Shown here piece by piece: positions 27,311 through 34,654 of a stretch of DNA of 56,816 bases. The stretch's first letter is position 1. The number at the start of each line of letters is the position of its first letter. The translations under genes were made by a program, and so were the position numbers. A model generated the notes under the pieces. It saw nothing but the letters and a program-made list of their open reading frames with translations, did not search any database and was not told the origin of the DNA. This stretch comes from Streptosporangiales bacterium (GTDB taxonomy: Bacteria > Actinomycetota > Actinomycetes > Streptosporangiales > WHST01): positions 1 through 56,816 of the forward strand of contig WHST01000031.1 in assembly GCA_009379955.1 (NCBI GenBank), read 5' to 3'.

Positions 27311-28096
27311 TCAGCGCAGGGCTCGACGCAGTCCGACCGCGCGCTCGATCAGCACCACGAACAGGATCGAGATCGCGATGAGGACGACGGACAGGGCGGC
27401 GACCTGCGGATCGGTGCGGAACTGCACGTAGCGGAAGATCTCCACCGGCAGCGTCGTGGTGCCCGACCCGACGACGAACAGCGAGATGACCGCCTCGTCG
27501 AACGAGATGAGGAACGCGATGACCGCGCCGGCGAGCACGCCCGACCTGATGAGCGGCAGCGTGACCCGGCGGAACGTCGTGAACGGGCTCGCGCCGAGCA
27601 CCCGCGCGGCCTCCTCGCACGAGGTGTCGGCGGTCATCAGGCTCATCATCGTGGTGCGCACGACGTACGGGACCGTCACGCCCAGGTGGGCCACCACGAG
27701 TCCCGGGTACGTGCCCGTCAGGCCGACCGGCGTCAGCACGAGCAGCAGCGCGAGTCCGAGGGTGATGGTCGGCACCATCAGCGGCGCGACGAAGAGCCCG
27801 GTGACGACCCCGCTCCCCCGGAACCTGTGCCGCTGCAATGCGATCGCCGCGGGCACGCCGACGAGAGTGGCGAGCGCCGCCACGATCACGCCCACGATCG
27901 CCGACACCTTGAACCCGGCGAGGAAGCCGGCGTTGCGCGTCAGCTCCGCGTACCACTGCAGCGAGAAACCCTGGGGCGGGAAGCGCAGGTACGGCTGGTC
28001 GTCGAAGGAGATCACCAGCACCACGAGGATGGGTGCGAGCAGGAACAGGTACAGCAGCGCGATGAGCGCGCGCCAGGCGATCGCCGTCGGTCTCAT
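27311..28096 (-). CDS. ABC transporter permease (PotC-like)
   Basis: This 261-residue membrane protein has six predicted helices and the binding-protein-dependent permease signature EEAARVLGASPFTTFRRVTLPL (EAA loop, about 160-181). It resembles the second permease of spermidine/putrescine-type importers. The ATG has GGAGG upstream, and the gene follows the other permease after 13 nt. It is the last gene of the operon read from 32614 downwards. Substrate unknown: the neighbouring RraA-like gene hints at an organic acid rather than a polyamine (inference). Confidence 0.92.
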   Translation of the reverse strand: MRPTAIAWRALIALLYLFLLAPILVVLVISFDDQPYLRFPPQGFSLQWYAELTRNAGFLAGFKVSAIVGVIVAALATLVGVPAAIALQRHRFRGSGVVTGLFVAPLMVPTITLGLALLLVLTPVGLTGTYPGLVVAHLGVTVPYVVRTTMMSLMTADTSCEEAARVLGASPFTTFRRVTLPLIRSGVLAGAVIAFLISFDEAVISLFVVGSGTTTLPVEIFRYVQFRTDPQVAALSVVLIAISILFVVLIERAVGLRRALR

Positions 28097-28109
28097 GGCG
28101 CCTCCTCCC

Positions 28110-29009
28110 CTATCCCTCGAGTGCGCGCACCGCGCGCTGGTAGCAGGCGATCACGACGCCGAACAGCACGAGCAGCATGACCGACAGCGCGGCGGCGAGC
28201 GGCCAGTTCAGCGTCATGGTCGCCTGGTTGAAGATCTCGGTCGCCAGCACGAACAGGCGTCCGCCGCCGACCAGTCGCGGGGTCACGAACGACGAGATGC
28301 TCAGCACGAACACCAGCAGCGCGGCCGTGATCACGCCGGGCATGCTGAGCGGCAGCGTGACCCGCCAGAACACCTTGGCCCGGTTGGCGCCGAGCGACGA
28401 GGCGGCGTGCTCGAGCTCGGCGTCGATGCGACCGAAGCCCGCGAGCATCGCCAGGATCGCGTACGGCATCAGGATCTCGACCAGCGCGATGACCGCGCCG
28501 GTGAAGTTGTTCATCAGCCGCAGTGGGGTGTCGATCAGGCCGAGGCCGGTGAGCGCACCGTTGACGACGCCCTGGTCGGCGAGGATCGCCATCCACCCGT
28601 ACGTCCGCACGACCGCGGACGTCAGCAGCGGTGCGATCGCCAGCGCCACGAGCACGCCGCGCCACCGCGACGTCGTGCGGCTGAGGAACAGCGCGATCGG
28701 GTACGACACCAGGACCGTGAGGACGGTGACGAGCAGGCCGAGCTGCACCGTCCGCCAGATGACACCCCAGTAGAACGAGTCACCGATCGCGGTGGCGTAG
28801 GAGTCGAGCGTGAGCGTGTTGACGATCAGGCCGGACGACTCACCGCGGTTGAGCGACATCCTGATCAACCACGCCAGCGGGGCCGCGAACGTCAGGAGCA
28901 GCGCGGCGAGGCCGGGCAGGAGCAGCGCCGCGGCCGTGCGCCTGGCCGAGCGCCGCGCGACCCCGCGGTCCGGCGGCGCCGGTACCCGGGTGGCGTGCGC
29001 GGTGGCCAT
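28110..29009 (-). CDS. ABC transporter permease (PotB-like)
   Basis: This 299-residue permease has a basic N-terminus, six helices and the EAA loop LEHAASSLGANRAKVFWRVTLP. It forms the membrane channel with the following permease and is driven by the ATPase encoded at 29726. The ATG at 29009 lies 9 nt after the RraA-like gene. Family members import polyamines, iron, phosphonates or organic anions. Confidence 0.92.
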   Translation of the reverse strand: MATAHATRVPAPPDRGVARRSARRTAAALLLPGLAALLLTFAAPLAWLIRMSLNRGESSGLIVNTLTLDSYATAIGDSFYWGVIWRTVQLGLLVTVLTVLVSYPIALFLSRTTSRWRGVLVALAIAPLLTSAVVRTYGWMAILADQGVVNGALTGLGLIDTPLRLMNNFTGAVIALVEILMPYAILAMLAGFGRIDAELEHAASSLGANRAKVFWRVTLPLSMPGVITAALLVFVLSISSFVTPRLVGGGRLFVLATEIFNQATMTLNWPLAAALSVMLLVLFGVVIACYQRAVRALEG

Positions 29010-29018
29010 CGCGACGCC

Positions 29019-29693
29019 TCAGCCGCCGACGCCGAGGCCGGCGATGATCCTGCCGGCGGCGGAGATGTCGGGGAGCTTGGTGCCCGCGTGCAGCCGCTCG
29101 ACGGTGGCGGGCTCGGCCGCGTCCGACGCCCGGGCGGCGTCGAGCACCGCGGCGACGTCGTCGGCACTCGCCAGCAGCACACCGTTGTCGTCGCCGGCCA
29201 CCAGGAACCCCGGCTCGACGGGTGTGCCACCGCATGTGACGGGCACGTTGATCCCGCCGGTGTCGATGCCGTGCAGCTTCGTCGTGAGGGCGGACGTCCC
29301 CCGCGCGTAGACGCTCAGGCCGAGCTCGCGCAGCGTGGCGATGTCGGTGCACGCCCCGTCGATCACGACCCCGACCGCGCCGGCGGCGGCGAGCGCGTGC
29401 CCGACCACTCCACCCACGGGCGCGTGCCTGGTGTCGCCGCCGGTGTCCACGACGAGGACGTCACCCGGCGAGAGCATCGACGTGATCTGGTGCACGAGCG
29501 TCGAGTCGGGGGCGGTGATCCTGACGGTGAGGGCCCGACCGGTCATCCGGCCCGTGCCGGCGAGGCGCCGGATCTGTGGGTCAGGGAAACCGGACTCGAG
29601 GAAGTGTCCGAACGTCGGGACGTCGACGCCGGCGACGTCGGCGACGAGGCCGGCCGGCAGTTCCGCCACGGAGGCGTTGATGACCATGGGCAC
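29019..29693 (-). CDS. RraA-family protein (HMG/CHA aldolase-like)
   Basis: This 224-residue protein has the RraA swivelling-domain fold: FGHFLESGFPD, GRALTVRITAPDS, then SPGDVLVVDTGGDTRHAPVGGVVG and GAVGVVIDGACTDIATLRELGLSVYARG. Catalytic members split 4-hydroxy-4-methyl-2-oxoglutarate or 4-carboxy-4-hydroxy-2-oxoadipate to pyruvate plus an oxoacid with a divalent metal. The metal Asp of the usual R-D pair is kept, but the Arg is replaced by Thr (GACTD), so the substrate may differ. The GTG at 29693 has AAGGAG upstream; an ATG 6 nt later is the alternative. It is embedded in the ABC operon, so it probably acts on the imported compound. Confidence 0.85.
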   Translation of the reverse strand: MPMVINASVAELPAGLVADVAGVDVPTFGHFLESGFPDPQIRRLAGTGRMTGRALTVRITAPDSTLVHQITSMLSPGDVLVVDTGGDTRHAPVGGVVGHALAAAGAVGVVIDGACTDIATLRELGLSVYARGTSALTTKLHGIDTGGINVPVTCGGTPVEPGFLVAGDDNGVLLASADDVAAVLDAARASDAAEPATVERLHAGTKLPDISAAGRIIAGLGVGG

Positions 29694-29725
29694 GAAGGGC
29701 GCTCCTTACTGGGCTTCGCGGACGT

Positions 29726-30841
29726 TCATTCGGCGTCGAGCACGAGGGCGTCGGCGGGACTCCACCCGACCGACACGGACTCCCCGACCGGGAGCGACGC
29801 ACCCTCGCCGGTGAGGGCCTCGGCGACGATGCGGTGGCCGGCGACGTCGACGGTCGCCGAGACCATGTCACCTGTGTAGCTACGGGCGACGACGCTGCCG
29901 CGCAGGGCGGTGTCGCCGTCCGCGGGACCGAGCGTGACCCGGTGCGGACGGACCAGGACGGTGACGTCGCCGGTCATCGGCCGCGAGCACACCGCGTCGA
30001 CGTCGCCGACCCCGTCGATGCGTACCGTGGCGCGCCCGTCGGTGCTGTCGAGCACGGCGCCGGGCAGCAGGTTGGCCCGGCCGATGAAGTCCGCGACGAA
30101 CCGGGTCGCGGGCCGCTCGTAGATCTCCTCCGGGGTGCCGACCTGTTCGACCCGGCCGTCGGAGACGACCGCGACGACGTCCGCGATCGACAGCGCCTCG
30201 TCCTGGTCGTGTGTGACGAAGACCGTCGTGATGCCGGTGCGTTGCTGGATCTCGCGGATCTCCGCTCGCATCTGCTCGCGCAGCTTCGCGTCGAGGTTGC
30301 TCAGCGGCTCGTCCAGCAGCAGGACCGTCGGCTCGACGACGAGCGCCCTGGCCAGCGCCACCCGCTGCGCCTGGCCGCCGGACAGCTCGCCGATCCTGCG
30401 TCCGGCGAGGTGTCCCAGCCGCACCTGCTCGAGGGCGGACGCCACACGCCGTTCGCGTTCGGCGCGACCCACCTTGCGCATCTCCAGGCCGAACGCGACG
30501 TTGCGCGCGACGTCGAGGTGCGGGAAGAGCGCGTACGACTGGAACACCATGCCCATGCCACGCCGGTGGACGGGCGTGCGCGTCAGGTCGGTGCCGTCGA
30601 CCTCGACGGTGCCCGAGGTCGGGTCGACGAAGCCGGCCACCATCCGCAGCGTGGTCGTCTTGCCGCAGCCGGACGGGCCGAGCAGCGCCAGCAGCTGACC
30701 GCCGTCGACGGTCAGGCTCACCTCGTCGACGGCGCGCTCCTGCTGACCCGGGTAGACCTTGACGAGGTCGTGCAGGTCGAGCCGCGCACCCACGCGGGTG
30801 TGGTCCGCCGTGCCCTGCGTCGCGGTCGTCACCTCAGCCAC
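29726..30841 (-). CDS. ABC transporter ATP-binding protein (PotA-like)
   Basis: This 371-residue ATPase has Walker A GPSGCGKTT, Q-loop MVFQSYALFPHL, signature ELSGGQAQRVALARAL and Walker B VLLLDEPLSNLD. A C-terminal TOBE domain begins at about 270 with VTVLVRPHRVTLGP. The GTG at 30841 overlaps the binding-protein gene by 8 nt. It powers uptake through the two permeases encoded downstream. Confidence 0.94.
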   Translation of the reverse strand: MAEVTTATQGTADHTRVGARLDLHDLVKVYPGQQERAVDEVSLTVDGGQLLALLGPSGCGKTTTLRMVAGFVDPTSGTVEVDGTDLTRTPVHRRGMGMVFQSYALFPHLDVARNVAFGLEMRKVGRAERERRVASALEQVRLGHLAGRRIGELSGGQAQRVALARALVVEPTVLLLDEPLSNLDAKLREQMRAEIREIQQRTGITTVFVTHDQDEALSIADVVAVVSDGRVEQVGTPEEIYERPATRFVADFIGRANLLPGAVLDSTDGRATVRIDGVGDVDAVCSRPMTGDVTVLVRPHRVTLGPADGDTALRGSVVARSYTGDMVSATVDVAGHRIVAEALTGEGASLPVGESVSVGWSPADALVLDAE

Positions 30842-31913
30842 CGATGACCTTGCGCCGCCACTCCTCGGTCCACGCGTCGCGGCGTTCGGCGATCCAGTTC
30901 CAGTCGACCGAGATCATCTCCTTCTGCCGCTCCGGGCTCGTCGCCGTGCGGTCGGCGGCAGCGGCGGGGACCTTTGCCTTGCTATTGGTCGGGGCGTAGA
31001 ACATCGTCTCGGTGAACGACTCCTGCGCCTTCGGGCTCAGCGCGTAGTCCATGAAGGCCTGGGCCGCCTTCGGGTGCTTGCTGTTCTTCGTCAGGTTGAT
31101 CGTGTTGACCTGGAAGACGCTGCCCTCCGACGGCAACGCGACGCCGAGCTTGCCCTTGGACGTGTCGGCGTAGAGCTGGCCCCTGGCGTTCCAGCCGACC
31201 GCCACCGTGGCCGAGCCCGACGTGACGAGGGAGTACGGATCCGGCTGCGGGTCCCAGGTCTGCACCGCACCGGACAGCTGCGACAGGCGCTCGACGGCGG
31301 GGTCGATGGTCTTCTGGTAGTCGGCCCCCTCCATCTTGCAGACGATCATCGTGAGGGCGAGGCCCTGGATGTCGGGCGCGGCGGGAATGCCGATCTTGCC
31401 CTTGTGCTTCGGGTCCCACAGCGCGTCCCAGCTCGTCGGCGCGGGCTTCACCTTCGTGGTGTCGTACAGCAGCACGAGGTTGTCGTACGTCACGGCGGGA
31501 CCGAAGTTCTTCGGGGTCTTCCCCTGCTCGGTGACGTCTGCCACGTTGGGGACGGCCTTGGGGTCGAGCGGGGCGAAAATGCCCTCCTTGTTGCCCGTCG
31601 CCGACACCGAGGTGTCCATGATCGCGACGTCGTTGCTCGGGTTCGATTTCTCCGACCGCAGGGTCGCCAGCATCTCCGCAGAGTTCTGCGCCGGCCGGAA
31701 AGTCACCTTGATCTTCGGGTTCGCCTTCTGGAACGGCTCGATGACCGCCTTCTCGTAGTTGTCCTGGAACACGCCGGCGTAGCCGAGGATCGTCACCGTG
31801 CCCTCGGTCGCGGAGTCGGGACCGGCGCTCGACGTGCCGCAGCCGGCGAGCGGCACGGTGAGGACGGCGGCCACGGCGAGCGCGGGCACGAGGCGGGTAC
31901 GGCGGAGACGCAT
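30834..31913 (-). CDS. ABC transporter substrate-binding lipoprotein (PotD/AfuA-like)
   Basis: This 359-residue lipoprotein has a basic N-terminus and a lipobox LAGC (Cys about residue 25). The mature bilobal binding protein begins GTVTILGYAGVFQDNYEKAV and includes VAIMDTSVSATG and SWDALWDPKHKGKIGIP. It belongs to the spermidine/putrescine and thiamine/iron group. The ATG at 31913 has GAAGGAG 5 nt upstream; an in-frame GTG at 31919 overlaps that site and is less likely. The ligand cannot be inferred. Confidence 0.92.
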   Translation of the reverse strand: MRLRRTRLVPALAVAAVLTVPLAGCGTSSAGPDSATEGTVTILGYAGVFQDNYEKAVIEPFQKANPKIKVTFRPAQNSAEMLATLRSEKSNPSNDVAIMDTSVSATGNKEGIFAPLDPKAVPNVADVTEQGKTPKNFGPAVTYDNLVLLYDTTKVKPAPTSWDALWDPKHKGKIGIPAAPDIQGLALTMIVCKMEGADYQKTIDPAVERLSQLSGAVQTWDPQPDPYSLVTSGSATVAVGWNARGQLYADTSKGKLGVALPSEGSVFQVNTINLTKNSKHPKAAQAFMDYALSPKAQESFTETMFYAPTNSKAKVPAAAADRTATSPERQKEMISVDWNWIAERRDAWTEEWRRKVIGG

Positions 31914-31939
31914 GGGCACTCCTTCGGTCGAACGAAGGG

Positions 31940-32614
31940 TCAGCGGGCGGGTGTGAGCGACGTGGCGGGCAGGGACTGCAGCCGCAGTTGCCGTTCGTGC
32001 GAGATGAGGATGTGGTTGCGAGTCTCCGCCGCGGCACGCTCCGGGTCACGGGTGCGCAGCGCGTCGACGATGGCGCGGTGGTGCGCCGGGACCTCCTCGA
32101 GACCGATCCGCTCGTGCGCGACGTACCACAGGCGCAGCGAGCCGCAGTTGAGGTTGCGTACGGCATCGACGAGGAAGCGGTTCTCCGACCCCTTCGCGAT
32201 CGCCAGGTGCAGGGCGTGGTCGACCTCCACGGCCTCGTAGACCTTGCCCTCGCCGGCCGCCGACTCGAGCTCGTCGCAGAACCGGTCGAGCTCGGCGAGC
32301 CCCGCGTCGGTGATGCGCTCGGCGGCGAGCCGGGAGACGGGCTCCTCGAGGAGCAGCCGGGACTCGTAGAGCTTGTGCAGCTCGTACGCGCTCGTCTCCC
32401 TGACGTACGCCGTGCGGCGTGGCGGCCAGACCACGAACTGCTCGAGGGCGAGCCGCTTGAGCGCCTCCCTGATGGGGGTGCGCCCGGTGTCGAAGCGCGC
32501 CATCAGGTCGGCCTCGTCGAGCGGCGCGTTGGCCTCGATCTCGCCCACGATGATGCCGCGACGCAACGCCTGGTAGGCGTGGTCCGACTTCGTCACGGGA
32601 TCCCTCACTGCCAT
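31940..32614 (-). CDS. GntR-family regulator (FCD type)
   Basis: This 224-residue protein has an N-terminal GntR winged helix (about 10-75: AYQALRRGIIVGEI, TGRTPIREALKRLALEQFV) and a C-terminal FCD ligand-binding domain with RLLLEEPVSRLAAERI, DHALHLAIAKGSEN and a final HHRAIVDAL. FCD regulators respond to organic acids. It is the first gene of the ABC/RraA operon. The ATG at 32614 has TATATC (32621-32626, minus strand) 6 nt upstream, which could be a -10 for a leaderless mRNA; the intervening GGGGG is too close for an ordinary ribosome binding site. Confidence 0.92.
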   Translation of the reverse strand: MAVRDPVTKSDHAYQALRRGIIVGEIEANAPLDEADLMARFDTGRTPIREALKRLALEQFVVWPPRRTAYVRETSAYELHKLYESRLLLEEPVSRLAAERITDAGLAELDRFCDELESAAGEGKVYEAVEVDHALHLAIAKGSENRFLVDAVRNLNCGSLRLWYVAHERIGLEEVPAHHRAIVDALRTRDPERAAAETRNHILISHERQLRLQSLPATSLTPAR

Positions 32615-32701
32615 ACCCCCGATATATTTTGAATGTAGGCAGCATGCACCCGGCGAACCGGCGGGTCAAGACCGGCGGGGGTCGGAACGTCTGGGGATAT
32701 G

Positions 32702-32725
32702 CATCAAACCAGTTTGATGTATCCT
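32702..32725 (+). promoter_or_regulatory. ArsR-type operator overlapping a leaderless promoter
   Basis: CATCAAACCAGTTTGATG (32702-32719) is a perfect 8-bp palindrome with a 2-bp centre, matching the ATCAA...TTGAT pattern of ArsR sites. It is immediately followed by TATCCT (32720-32725), a -10 box 6 nt before the GTG start at 32732. Repressor bound here would block the promoter of its own gene. Confidence 0.75.
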
Positions 32726-32731
32726 GCGCGA

Positions 32732-33505
32732 GTGGCTGGCGACTCGGCACTCGTGGACGTGTCACCGCCGGTGTTCCTGCGCCTGGTGGGGAACCCGGTG
32801 CGGTGGCGGTTGCTCACCGAGCTGGCGGGCAGCGACCTGCGGGTCGGGGAGCTGACCGCCAGGGTCGGCCAACCGCAGAACGCGGTCTCGTACCACCTCG
32901 GACGCCTGCGCTCCGGTGGGCTCGTATCGATGCGGCGCAGCTCTGCCGATCACCGGGACAGCTACTACCACGTCGACCTGGCCCGCTGCGGCGAACTCCT
33001 CGCAGCGACCGGGACCGCGCTGCACCCCGGTCTGGCCACCGGCCCGGCCACCGCTGGTCGCCGCCGTCGTACCACCCCGACACGGGTGCTCTTTCTCTGC
33101 ACCGGGAACAGCGCCCGTTCCCAGATCGCCGAAGCCCTCCTCGCTCGCGCCGGCGGTGACCGTGTCGAGACCGCCAGTGCCGGCAGCCACCCCAAGGACG
33201 TGCACCCGCATGCGATCCGGGTGCTGCGGGAGTACGGCATCGACATCACGGGCCGGCGCGGCAGTCACCTCGCCGAGTTCACCGGACACCGCTTCGACTA
33301 CGTGGTCACCCTCTGCGACAAGGTCCGCGAGGTCTGCCCCGAGTTCACCGGCGGTCCCGCGTCGATCCACTGGAGCATTCCCGATCCCGCCGCCGACGGC
33401 ACCGGCTACTCGGCGTTCCGCCAGGTCGCCGCCGAACTCCACACCCGCATCGAGCTCTTCACCCGCCGCATCGACACACCACCGACGAGAGGTGACCGGT
33501 CATGA
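32732..33505 (+). CDS. Fused ArsR repressor and thioredoxin-type arsenate reductase
   Basis: This 257-residue protein joins an ArsR winged helix (about 10-95: RWRLLTELAGSDLRVGEL, QNAVSYHLGRLRSGGLV) to a low-molecular-weight phosphatase-fold domain (about 117-252). The catalytic loop is CTGNSARS (Cys123 to Ser130), and the acid is Asp218 in SIPDPA. Cys195 and Cys202 in LCDKVREVC have the 7-residue spacing of the Cys82/Cys89 pair in thioredoxin-coupled ArsC, so arsenate reduction is more likely than protein phosphatase activity. The ArsR part lacks an obvious CxC metal site. The GTG at 32732 was chosen over earlier ATGs that lie inside the operator. It overlaps the VOC gene by ATGA. Confidence 0.87.
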   Translation: MAGDSALVDVSPPVFLRLVGNPVRWRLLTELAGSDLRVGELTARVGQPQNAVSYHLGRLRSGGLVSMRRSSADHRDSYYHVDLARCGELLAATGTALHPGLATGPATAGRRRRTTPTRVLFLCTGNSARSQIAEALLARAGGDRVETASAGSHPKDVHPHAIRVLREYGIDITGRRGSHLAEFTGHRFDYVVTLCDKVREVCPEFTGGPASIHWSIPDPAADGTGYSAFRQVAAELHTRIELFTRRIDTPPTRGDRS

Positions 33506-33891
33506 CCGAGATCGACGACAGCATGGTCAGCGTCCGCTACATCGTTGACGACGTGCAGGCCGCGGTCGACTTCTACACCACCCACCTCGGCTTCACCCTG
33601 CGCTCCGCGCACCTACCCGCCTTCGCCGACGTCACCCGCGGCCCGTTGCGGTTGCTCCTGTCCGGATCGGCCAGCTCCGGTGCCCGCGCCACACCGACGG
33701 ACGCCGCAACCGCCGGGCGCAACCGCATCCACCTCACCGTCGACGACCTCGACGCCGAGATCGAGCGACTACGCCGGGCCGGGCTGCCCTTCCGCAGCGA
33801 CGTCGTCGCAGGTCCAGGCGGACGCCAGATCCTGCTCGCCGACCCTTCTGGCAACCTCGTCGAGCTGTTCACTCCCGCGACGACCGACTGA
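33502..33891 (+). CDS. VOC-family (glyoxalase/dioxygenase-fold) protein
   Basis: This 129-residue protein is a single VOC domain with two beta-alpha-beta-beta-beta repeats: VRYIVDDVQAAVDFYTTHLGF and IHLTVDDLDAEIERLRRAG, ending LLADPSGNLVELF with the metal-binding Glu. The position after an arsenate reductase suggests ArsI (C-As lyase), but there is no cysteine at all, whereas ArsI uses a vicinal cysteine pair. A glyoxalase-like or bleomycin-resistance-like role is possible. Co-transcribed with the fusion gene through a 4-nt overlap. Confidence 0.85.
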   Translation: MTEIDDSMVSVRYIVDDVQAAVDFYTTHLGFTLRSAHLPAFADVTRGPLRLLLSGSASSGARATPTDAATAGRNRIHLTVDDLDAEIERLRRAGLPFRSDVVAGPGGRQILLADPSGNLVELFTPATTD

Positions 33892-33925: not shown

Positions 33926-34654
33926 CTACCTGAGCAGGCGAGGCTCGATCCTGGTCTCCTTGGCCGTGCCGCCGGCGTCGGGCTCGACGTGGTAGGCGTT
34001 GGCGCCCCGCACCTCGGCGACGACGTCGACGAGCTCGGTGCCGAGGTAGTGCAGGCCCACGCCGTTGTCGGTCGCGTAGCCGGCCGCGAGCGTGCCGCTG
34101 CCGACGAGTCGGTGGTAGAGCGGGCGGCGCTGCCGCTCGCTGTCGTAGTGCGGGCAGTTGGAGTACGGCAGGAAACCGAGGCAGTCGGTGATCGGCTGGA
34201 GGTCGAGGCCGAAGGAGTCGGTGGTGCCGCCGCTGTGCCAGCACAGCGAGCCGGCGCTCACCCCGGTGAGCACGACGCCGGCCTCCCAGCACTCACGGAG
34301 GATCTCGTCGATCCGGTGGACCCGCCACAACGCCAGCAGGTTGGCCGTCGACCCGCCGCACACCCAGATGACGTCCTGGGCGAGCAGGTGACTGCGGTAG
34401 TCGCGGTGGTTGGGCATGTCGAAGACGGTCACGTGGCTGGTGTGGACGTCGGCCTTGACGCCCACGGCGTCGTGCCAGCGCGCGATCGTGGCGGCGTCGT
34501 CGCCCAGCGCGGTAAAGAGGCCGCACACCTTCGGGACGGGGACCTCCGCGAGCCGGATCGCCTCGTCGAGGAGCTCGCCGCGGTCGAGGAACCGCACACC
34601 CGGACGCATCTTCAGGCCCCCGCTGGTGGCGAGGATCTGAGGGGGGCGAGGCAT
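33926..34654 (-). CDS. Peptidase E-like protein (peptidase S51)
   Basis: This 242-residue protein has the S51 fold, with LATSGGL at the N-terminus, VIWVCGGSTANLLALW, and the nucleophile elbow GVSAGSLCW whose Ser is the catalytic residue. A following YSNCPHYDSE segment supplies the usual His. Family members cleave Asp-X dipeptides (PepE) or cyanophycin. Here the length fits PepE. The ATG at 34654 follows GGAGGGA. It is convergent with the VOC gene. Specificity unknown. Confidence 0.87.
   Translation of the reverse strand: MPRPPQILATSGGLKMRPGVRFLDRGELLDEAIRLAEVPVPKVCGLFTALGDDAATIARWHDAVGVKADVHTSHVTVFDMPNHRDYRSHLLAQDVIWVCGGSTANLLALWRVHRIDEILRECWEAGVVLTGVSAGSLCWHSGGTTDSFGLDLQPITDCLGFLPYSNCPHYDSERQRRPLYHRLVGSGTLAAGYATDNGVGLHYLGTELVDVVAEVRGANAYHVEPDAGGTAKETRIEPRLLR

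Follow-up and report, generated by a model that had tools for sequence, protein, structure and literature searches.

ArsR-ArsC (ArsRC) fusions as such are already in print, having been reported in L. ferriphilum, Microbacterium, Sinorhizobium and the actinobacterial clusters C4/C7 (PMC6205960, PMC6514093; here and below, citations refer to the parts of the papers that were available). In those parts of the two papers we found no biochemical characterisation of an ArsR-ArsC fusion, and for Actinobacteria only the C. glutamicum ArsC enzymes are given as characterised (PMC6514093). In L. ferriphilum, arsRC is reported to increase between 30 and 120 min following a shock with arsenite (PMC4443643). 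The ArsR core consensus site is ATCAA-N6-TTGAT, conserved cysteines of ArsR bind As(III), and the P. denitrificans ArsR is released from DNA by diamide as well as by arsenite (PMC9137774). CadI, a VOC protein, has been found in Frankia ars operons (PMC4531530).

We analysed a stretch of 56,816 nucleotides (the window) from a 6.6 Mb, high-GC genome of 225 contigs (G000). Like the published fusions, which the available texts report in Actinobacteria, one of its proteins joins an ArsR-type helix-turn-helix (HTH) and a thioredoxin-type ArsC in one chain. Clusters C4/C7, as far as the available part of PMC6514093 describes them, may or may not take in the clade of this protein. New here are a supported clade with a VOC gene next door (28/31 loci), the lack of As(III) cysteine pairs, and ChrA or APC neighbours. 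In a survey of mostly non-subscription literature, by listings, we found no description of an ArsR-ArsC and VOC cassette or of these transporter neighbours.

A two-gene cassette behind an ArsR-type operator

Two overlapping plus-strand genes, the fusion and then the VOC gene, sit between a GntR-type regulator gene and an S51-peptidase gene (Table 1). The VOC start codon overlaps the fusion stop by 4 nt (ATGA), and, going by coordinates, 9 more of the 28 loci with VOC show this overlap. As the original prediction had stated, repressor and ArsC lie in a single open reading frame: HTH_5 (32.4 bits), HTH_20 (33.6 bits) and LMWPc all match above their Pfam cut-offs. NCBIfam HTH_metalloreg scored 48.7, just below its cut-off of 55, and TIGR02691, the equivalog for thioredoxin-type ArsC, stayed at 85.3 bits against a cut-off of 174.3. 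The following gene was also as predicted, encoding a VOC protein (Glyoxalase, PF00903) with no cysteine at all. Elsewhere in the window, judging from the sequence, the minus strand at 27311-31919 carries genes of a polyamine-type ABC transporter with an RraA-like gene among them (29019-29693). The best NCBIfam match of the neighbouring GntR regulator is phnR_burk, below cut-off.

Table 1 Features of the cassette and its flanking genes, in window coordinates
Feature	Position	Strand	Remarks
GntR-type regulator gene	31940-32614	-	divergent from fusion gene
Operator, perfect palindrome CATCAAAC-CA-GTTTGATG	32702-32719		core ATCAA-N6-TTGAT at 32703-32718; binding predicted
-10 box TATCCT, leaderless promoter	32720-32725	+	directly 3' of palindrome, 6 nt before GTG
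ArsR-ArsC fusion gene	32732-33505	+	257 aa, GTG start; both domains by Pfam
ArsR-type winged-helix domain core	32789-32932	+	Pfam HTH_5/HTH_20; no CxC or CC..C
C86, single Cys of HTH half	32987-32989	+	beyond domain core; by Cys count
LMW-PTP/thioredoxin-type ArsC domain	33086-33454	+	Pfam LMWPc
C123 in CTGNSARS loop	33098-33100	+	ArsC domain
C195	33314-33316	+	ArsC domain
C202	33335-33337	+	ArsC domain
VOC-fold protein gene	33502-33891	+	129 aa, without cysteine; Pfam Glyoxalase PF00903
S51-peptidase gene	33926-34654	-	convergent with VOC gene

Relatives were drawn from the best 80 loci listed when 84,980 species' genomes were scanned at the protein level. Close relatives among the matches listed are L021-L047 and L049, with a best-segment identity of 50-61%; adding L017 (same genus), L014 (Nonomuraea) and the window gives the 31 loci considered below. 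An ArsC-domain tree, built on few columns and with many open forks, places the window protein and 48 others in one supported set (99/95), which spans Actinomycetota, Chloroflexota and Pseudomonadota and stands apart from the other fetched ArsC and ArsR-ArsC proteins. VOC adjoins the fusion in 28 of the 31 loci, window included, and is absent in L030, L044 and L047. A class sample of 394 genomes holds the fusion in 19 and VOC in 32; the two adjoin in 14 of the 19, the window's genome included, and in one more, G345, fusion and VOC are each at the end of a contig. From the places found in this sample 20 regions were fetched, some from the same genome twice and one (C50) from the window's own. 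The cassette is a compact two-gene unit conserved in scattered bacteria of three phyla, and its patchy spread suggests that it may have been transferred horizontally.

The full palindrome CATCAAACCAGTTTGATG (32702-32719) has no imperfect position and is the sole such site in the window at <=3 mismatches, for which shuffles give a mean of 0.01. The earlier description of a perfect palindrome abutting the -10 box of a leaderless promoter thus proved accurate (Table 1), and the operator core is the very ArsR consensus given in PMC9137774. Upstream of the fusion, the operator is exact in 25 of the 31 loci and within one mismatch in all, with TANNNT immediately behind it in 25/31; the layout of operator, -10 box and start recurs in relatives and is therefore not due to chance. 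Tandem pairs of the operator were seen in L023, L031, L032 and L042, the second of L042 having one mismatch. The frame of the fusion could also be entered from an ATG at 32699. Because it precedes both palindrome and -10 box, and relatives have a similar spacing (start mostly 13-15 nt past the operator and 6-8 nt past TANNNT), the GTG at 32732 is the likely, leaderless start and use of the ATG appears unlikely.

Across its 6.6 Mb the genome has three exact matches to ATCAA-N6-TTGAT and none to the reversed pattern used as control. The sites are the cassette operator, one on contig C67 and one in the arsR-acr3 promoter of contig C112. The C67 site (C67:23284-23299; L173:4785-4800) precedes a gene that, going by its sequence, encodes an LLM-type oxidoreductase, and is adjoined by two copies of a GTCAAG..CTTGAC palindrome before a divergent gene.

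Conserved residues of the fusion and the VOC partner

Counted from GTG 32732, the fusion has cysteines at 86, 123, 195 and 202. This confirms the positions of the three cysteines previously proposed as catalytic (123, 195, 202) and adds a fourth, C86, in the HTH half; D218 is a further noted residue of the ArsC domain. The AlphaFold2 model of this domain (pLDDT 88.9) has D. indicus ArsC2 (8p5n, E 8.6e-13) as its best fold match, and the protein carries the hallmarks of thioredoxin-type ArsC, namely an LMW-PTP fold, the Cys loop and two further cysteines. Fold and Cys-loop/Cys/Cys arrangement are shared with the thioredoxin-type arsenate reductases S. aureus pI258 ArsC and D. indicus ArsC2, but the window protein is fused to a repressor, and the third cysteine is missing in 11/49 of its relatives.

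These residues were counted in a non-redundant set of 49 relatives to which L048 and the window belong. L039, absent from alignments A1 and A3, was restored for the counts; L133 was dropped as a copy of L047; and L048 (Chloroflexaceae), although counted, falls outside the clade in the tree and is not one of the 31 loci. C123, N126, R129, S130 and C195 are invariant (49/49). C86 is kept in 43 and missing in 6, C202 is kept in 38, and D218 is kept in 44 with Asn in the other 5. In the comparison set (57 of 58 other ArsC domains, those spanning the sites), C202 is kept in 56/57 and D218 in 57/57. Placed on the tree, the members without C202 belong to Nocardia, Mycobacterium, Phytohabitans, Amycolatopsis and Nonomuraea (L014), and the residue was probably lost more than once in the clade. 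Since C202 is missing in 11/49 and D218 is Asn in 5/49, against 1/57 and 0/57 elsewhere, classical reduction is, judged by these residues, not conserved across the clade. We also considered whether C86 and C202 are lost in a complementary way. Not one member is without both; given 6 and 11 losses in the 49, however, chance alone would produce this with a probability of 0.20, and the idea was dropped.

Canonical ArsRs sense As(III) through CxC or CC..C cysteines. Neither pair nor triad was found in the HTH half of the clade, whose only cysteine is C86. The ArsRs of the window's own genome carry CxC (EACVCEL, EACVCDL, LCTCHL). An HTH profile, being narrow, found only six fused ORFs among the distant loci, and motifs were read by eye instead. 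Six other fetched fusions (L051, L073, L079, L080, L085 and L098) have CC or CC..C in their ArsR half, and for four of them, not L080 and L098, the stretch that was fetched also contains an Acr3 match, whereas the window's clade has neither motif and a VOC gene instead. The original prediction had suggested that the repressor half may sense the arsenite made by its own enzyme. This is weakened by the lack of a cysteine pair, by the absence of C86 in 6/49 and by the position of the invariant cysteines in the enzyme half.

The VOC model (AlphaFold2 pLDDT 88.7) resembles a large number of VOC folds, in most cases with a TM of 0.6-0.76 to the query; among them are the antibiotic-binding TnmS1, a bleomycin-resistance protein and FosA types. 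The likeness is generic, and bleomycin-resistance and antibiotic-binding VOC proteins such as TnmS1 share the fold at ~20-28% identity. ArsI C-As lyases use vicinal cysteines for trivalent organoarsenicals. With ArsI and CadI the window's protein shares the VOC fold and a place in an ars-type operon, but it has no cysteine, and the usual metal-ligand positions, judged by eye, hold no ligand residue except for the last Glu (E121). Lacking cysteine, it is probably not a C-As lyase of the ArsI type; nor do the 28 aligned VOC proteins, window's included, have a conserved cysteine column. Stand-alone relatives exist, one of them 84% identical (G403), which rules out VOC as a partner dedicated to the fusion only and makes the family wider than the cassette. 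A VOC paralogue without fusion, 57% identical, lies in the same genome (C50:37733-38104).

Transporters near and far

The original prediction saw no arsenite pump. This is true of the neighbourhood only: the window's contig has no Acr3 match and the genome no ArsB match over cut-off, but the genome search for Acr3 that had been proposed as a check returned two genes over the family cut-off on other contigs, C14 and C112. Both adjoin ArsR and ArsC-type genes. The order on C14 is ArsR-Acr3-ArsC; C112 carries Acr3 with an ArsR of the CTC type, a further ArsR, a second ArsR-ArsC fusion and, going by their sequences, an oxidoreductase and a phosphate-type transporter. This second fusion (C112:9249-10238; L016), placed between the Acr3/ArsR group and the oxidoreductase gene, is very different from the window's, with 329 aa, a longer linker and no CxC in its HTH half. 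A classical ars operon has an arsenite pump in the same operon, and the cassette has none. ArsB as a hidden pump was rejected, with 0 matches over cut-off in 30 genomes and ion-transporter matches below threshold.

Acr3 is found over cut-off in 12/29 cassette-bearing genomes. In the class sample it is hardly commoner with the fusion (9/19 fusion-bearing genomes vs 160/394 overall), and there is no clear association. We compared a selection of 40 acr3 upstream regions, 20 of other fusion-bearing genomes and 20 of fusion-lacking genomes of the window's order, and viewed L161 and L165 separately. The operator was exact in 0/20 regions of fusion-bearing genomes (relaxed 1/20) and in 1/20 of the fusion-lacking controls (relaxed 3/20). 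Shared control of acr3 is therefore not general, although the exact site in the C112 arsR-acr3 promoter makes it possible in the window's own genome.

Other transporters were seen beside the cassette. ChrA adjoins it in 9/31 loci (L022, with another ChrA type, L026, L033, L034, L035, L036, L041, L045 and L047) and an APC permease in 5/31 (L017, L024, L029, L043 and L044), never both at the same cassette. The Pfam check covered 3 of the 9 ChrA and 1 of the 5 APC proteins, and ChrA places were also located by PF02417. Of 20 ChrA genes counted in the 29 cassette-bearing genomes, 9 lie at the cassette; the window's genome has no ChrA match. In the mycobacterial-type loci L161 and L165 the fusion has no VOC, and its neighbours are a multicopper oxidase, an APC permease and arsR-acr3-arsC.

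Proposed mechanism and alternative readings

The reading we favour, with about as much confidence as doubt, is an autonomous, autoregulated arsenic-stress cassette whose ArsC half is the sensor and whose arsenite leaves by Acr3 encoded elsewhere. A dimer of the fusion would bind ATCAA-N6-TTGAT over the core promoter and repress its own gene and VOC; site, layout and conservation are observed, and binding is predicted from them. Arsenate would enter the CTGNSARS loop of the ArsC half and be reduced via C123-C195-C202. The reacted state, with As on C123/C195 or with their disulfide, may then loosen the HTH half from DNA, so that sensing would fall to the enzyme half and not to an As(III) site of its own in the repressor, and release would raise expression of fusion and VOC. 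Arsenite would exit through an Acr3 encoded elsewhere in the window's genome, a ChrA or APC transporter adjoining in some relatives, and VOC may act as an accessory by binding or modifying some small ligand. A link to arsenic is likely, because the operator equals the ArsR consensus quoted in the available part of PMC9137774 and L161 and L165 sit beside arsR-acr3-arsC.

The known arsenic repressors respond to arsenite, which is what the reductase produces. More tentatively, we propose that the fusion may be a trigger-enzyme repressor, in which arsenate or another tetrahedral oxyanion on C123/C195 drives the DNA switch directly. The pentavalent oxyanion, not the reduced product, would be sensed, reduction would be dispensable where C202 or D218 is lost, and VOC together with ChrA or APC, themselves interchangeable, would form the output of a new oxyanion-stress module that does not depend on a pump. 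If so, a repressor in which only the reductase cysteines are invariant would sense arsenate or other oxyanions, one chain being sensor, enzyme and switch. This would explain how a pump-less cassette works and spreads, might offer a compact arsenate biosensor, and would give this VOC family a concrete genomic context and hence a testable role.

The original prediction had allowed for a target other than arsenate. This doubt still carries weight, as a ChrA-type transporter lies beside 9/31 loci. On that ChrA evidence, including the nearly half of counted ChrA genes that lie at the cassette, the ArsC-like pocket could sense another tetrahedral oxyanion such as chromate, with ChrA as exporter, lost or never gained in the window's genome. 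We think this a serious alternative but an unlikely one, as 22/31 loci have no ChrA beside them and the window's genome has none, an APC permease takes its place at five other loci, and the operator is the ArsR consensus (PMC9137774, available part). Equally serious, and equally unlikely, is the alternative that the fusion is a thiol-redox or electrophile switch, operating by a C123-C195 disulfide with little reductase activity while VOC handles an organic toxin. C123 and C195 are the only invariant cysteines, the P. denitrificans ArsR also leaves DNA with diamide (PMC9137774, available part), and TnmS1 and a bleomycin-binding protein are among the many VOC folds that the partner resembles; a bare disulfide switch, however, would not need the arsenate loop with its invariant N126, R129 and S130, and two members (L161, L165) lie beside arsR-acr3-arsC. 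Ordinary arsenate detoxification, with ArsR and ArsC merely joined, Acr3 acting in trans and VOC without a specific role, seems the least probable. It would fit the known fusions of several genera (PMC6205960, PMC6514093, available parts), the two Acr3 genes of the window's genome and the stand-alone VOC relatives, one of them 84% identical, but it leaves a VOC neighbour kept across three phyla unaccounted for, and 10/19 fusion-bearing genomes sampled have no Acr3 match.

Two further arrangements were observed around the fusion. In mycobacteria it is followed by a multicopper oxidase gene, which comes after VOC in L045 and takes the place of VOC in L044 (5067-6539), L161 and L165. In Sphaerisporangium (L022:2697-6292) two ArsR-LMWPc fusions lie back to back, one followed by a different ChrA type and the other by VOC.
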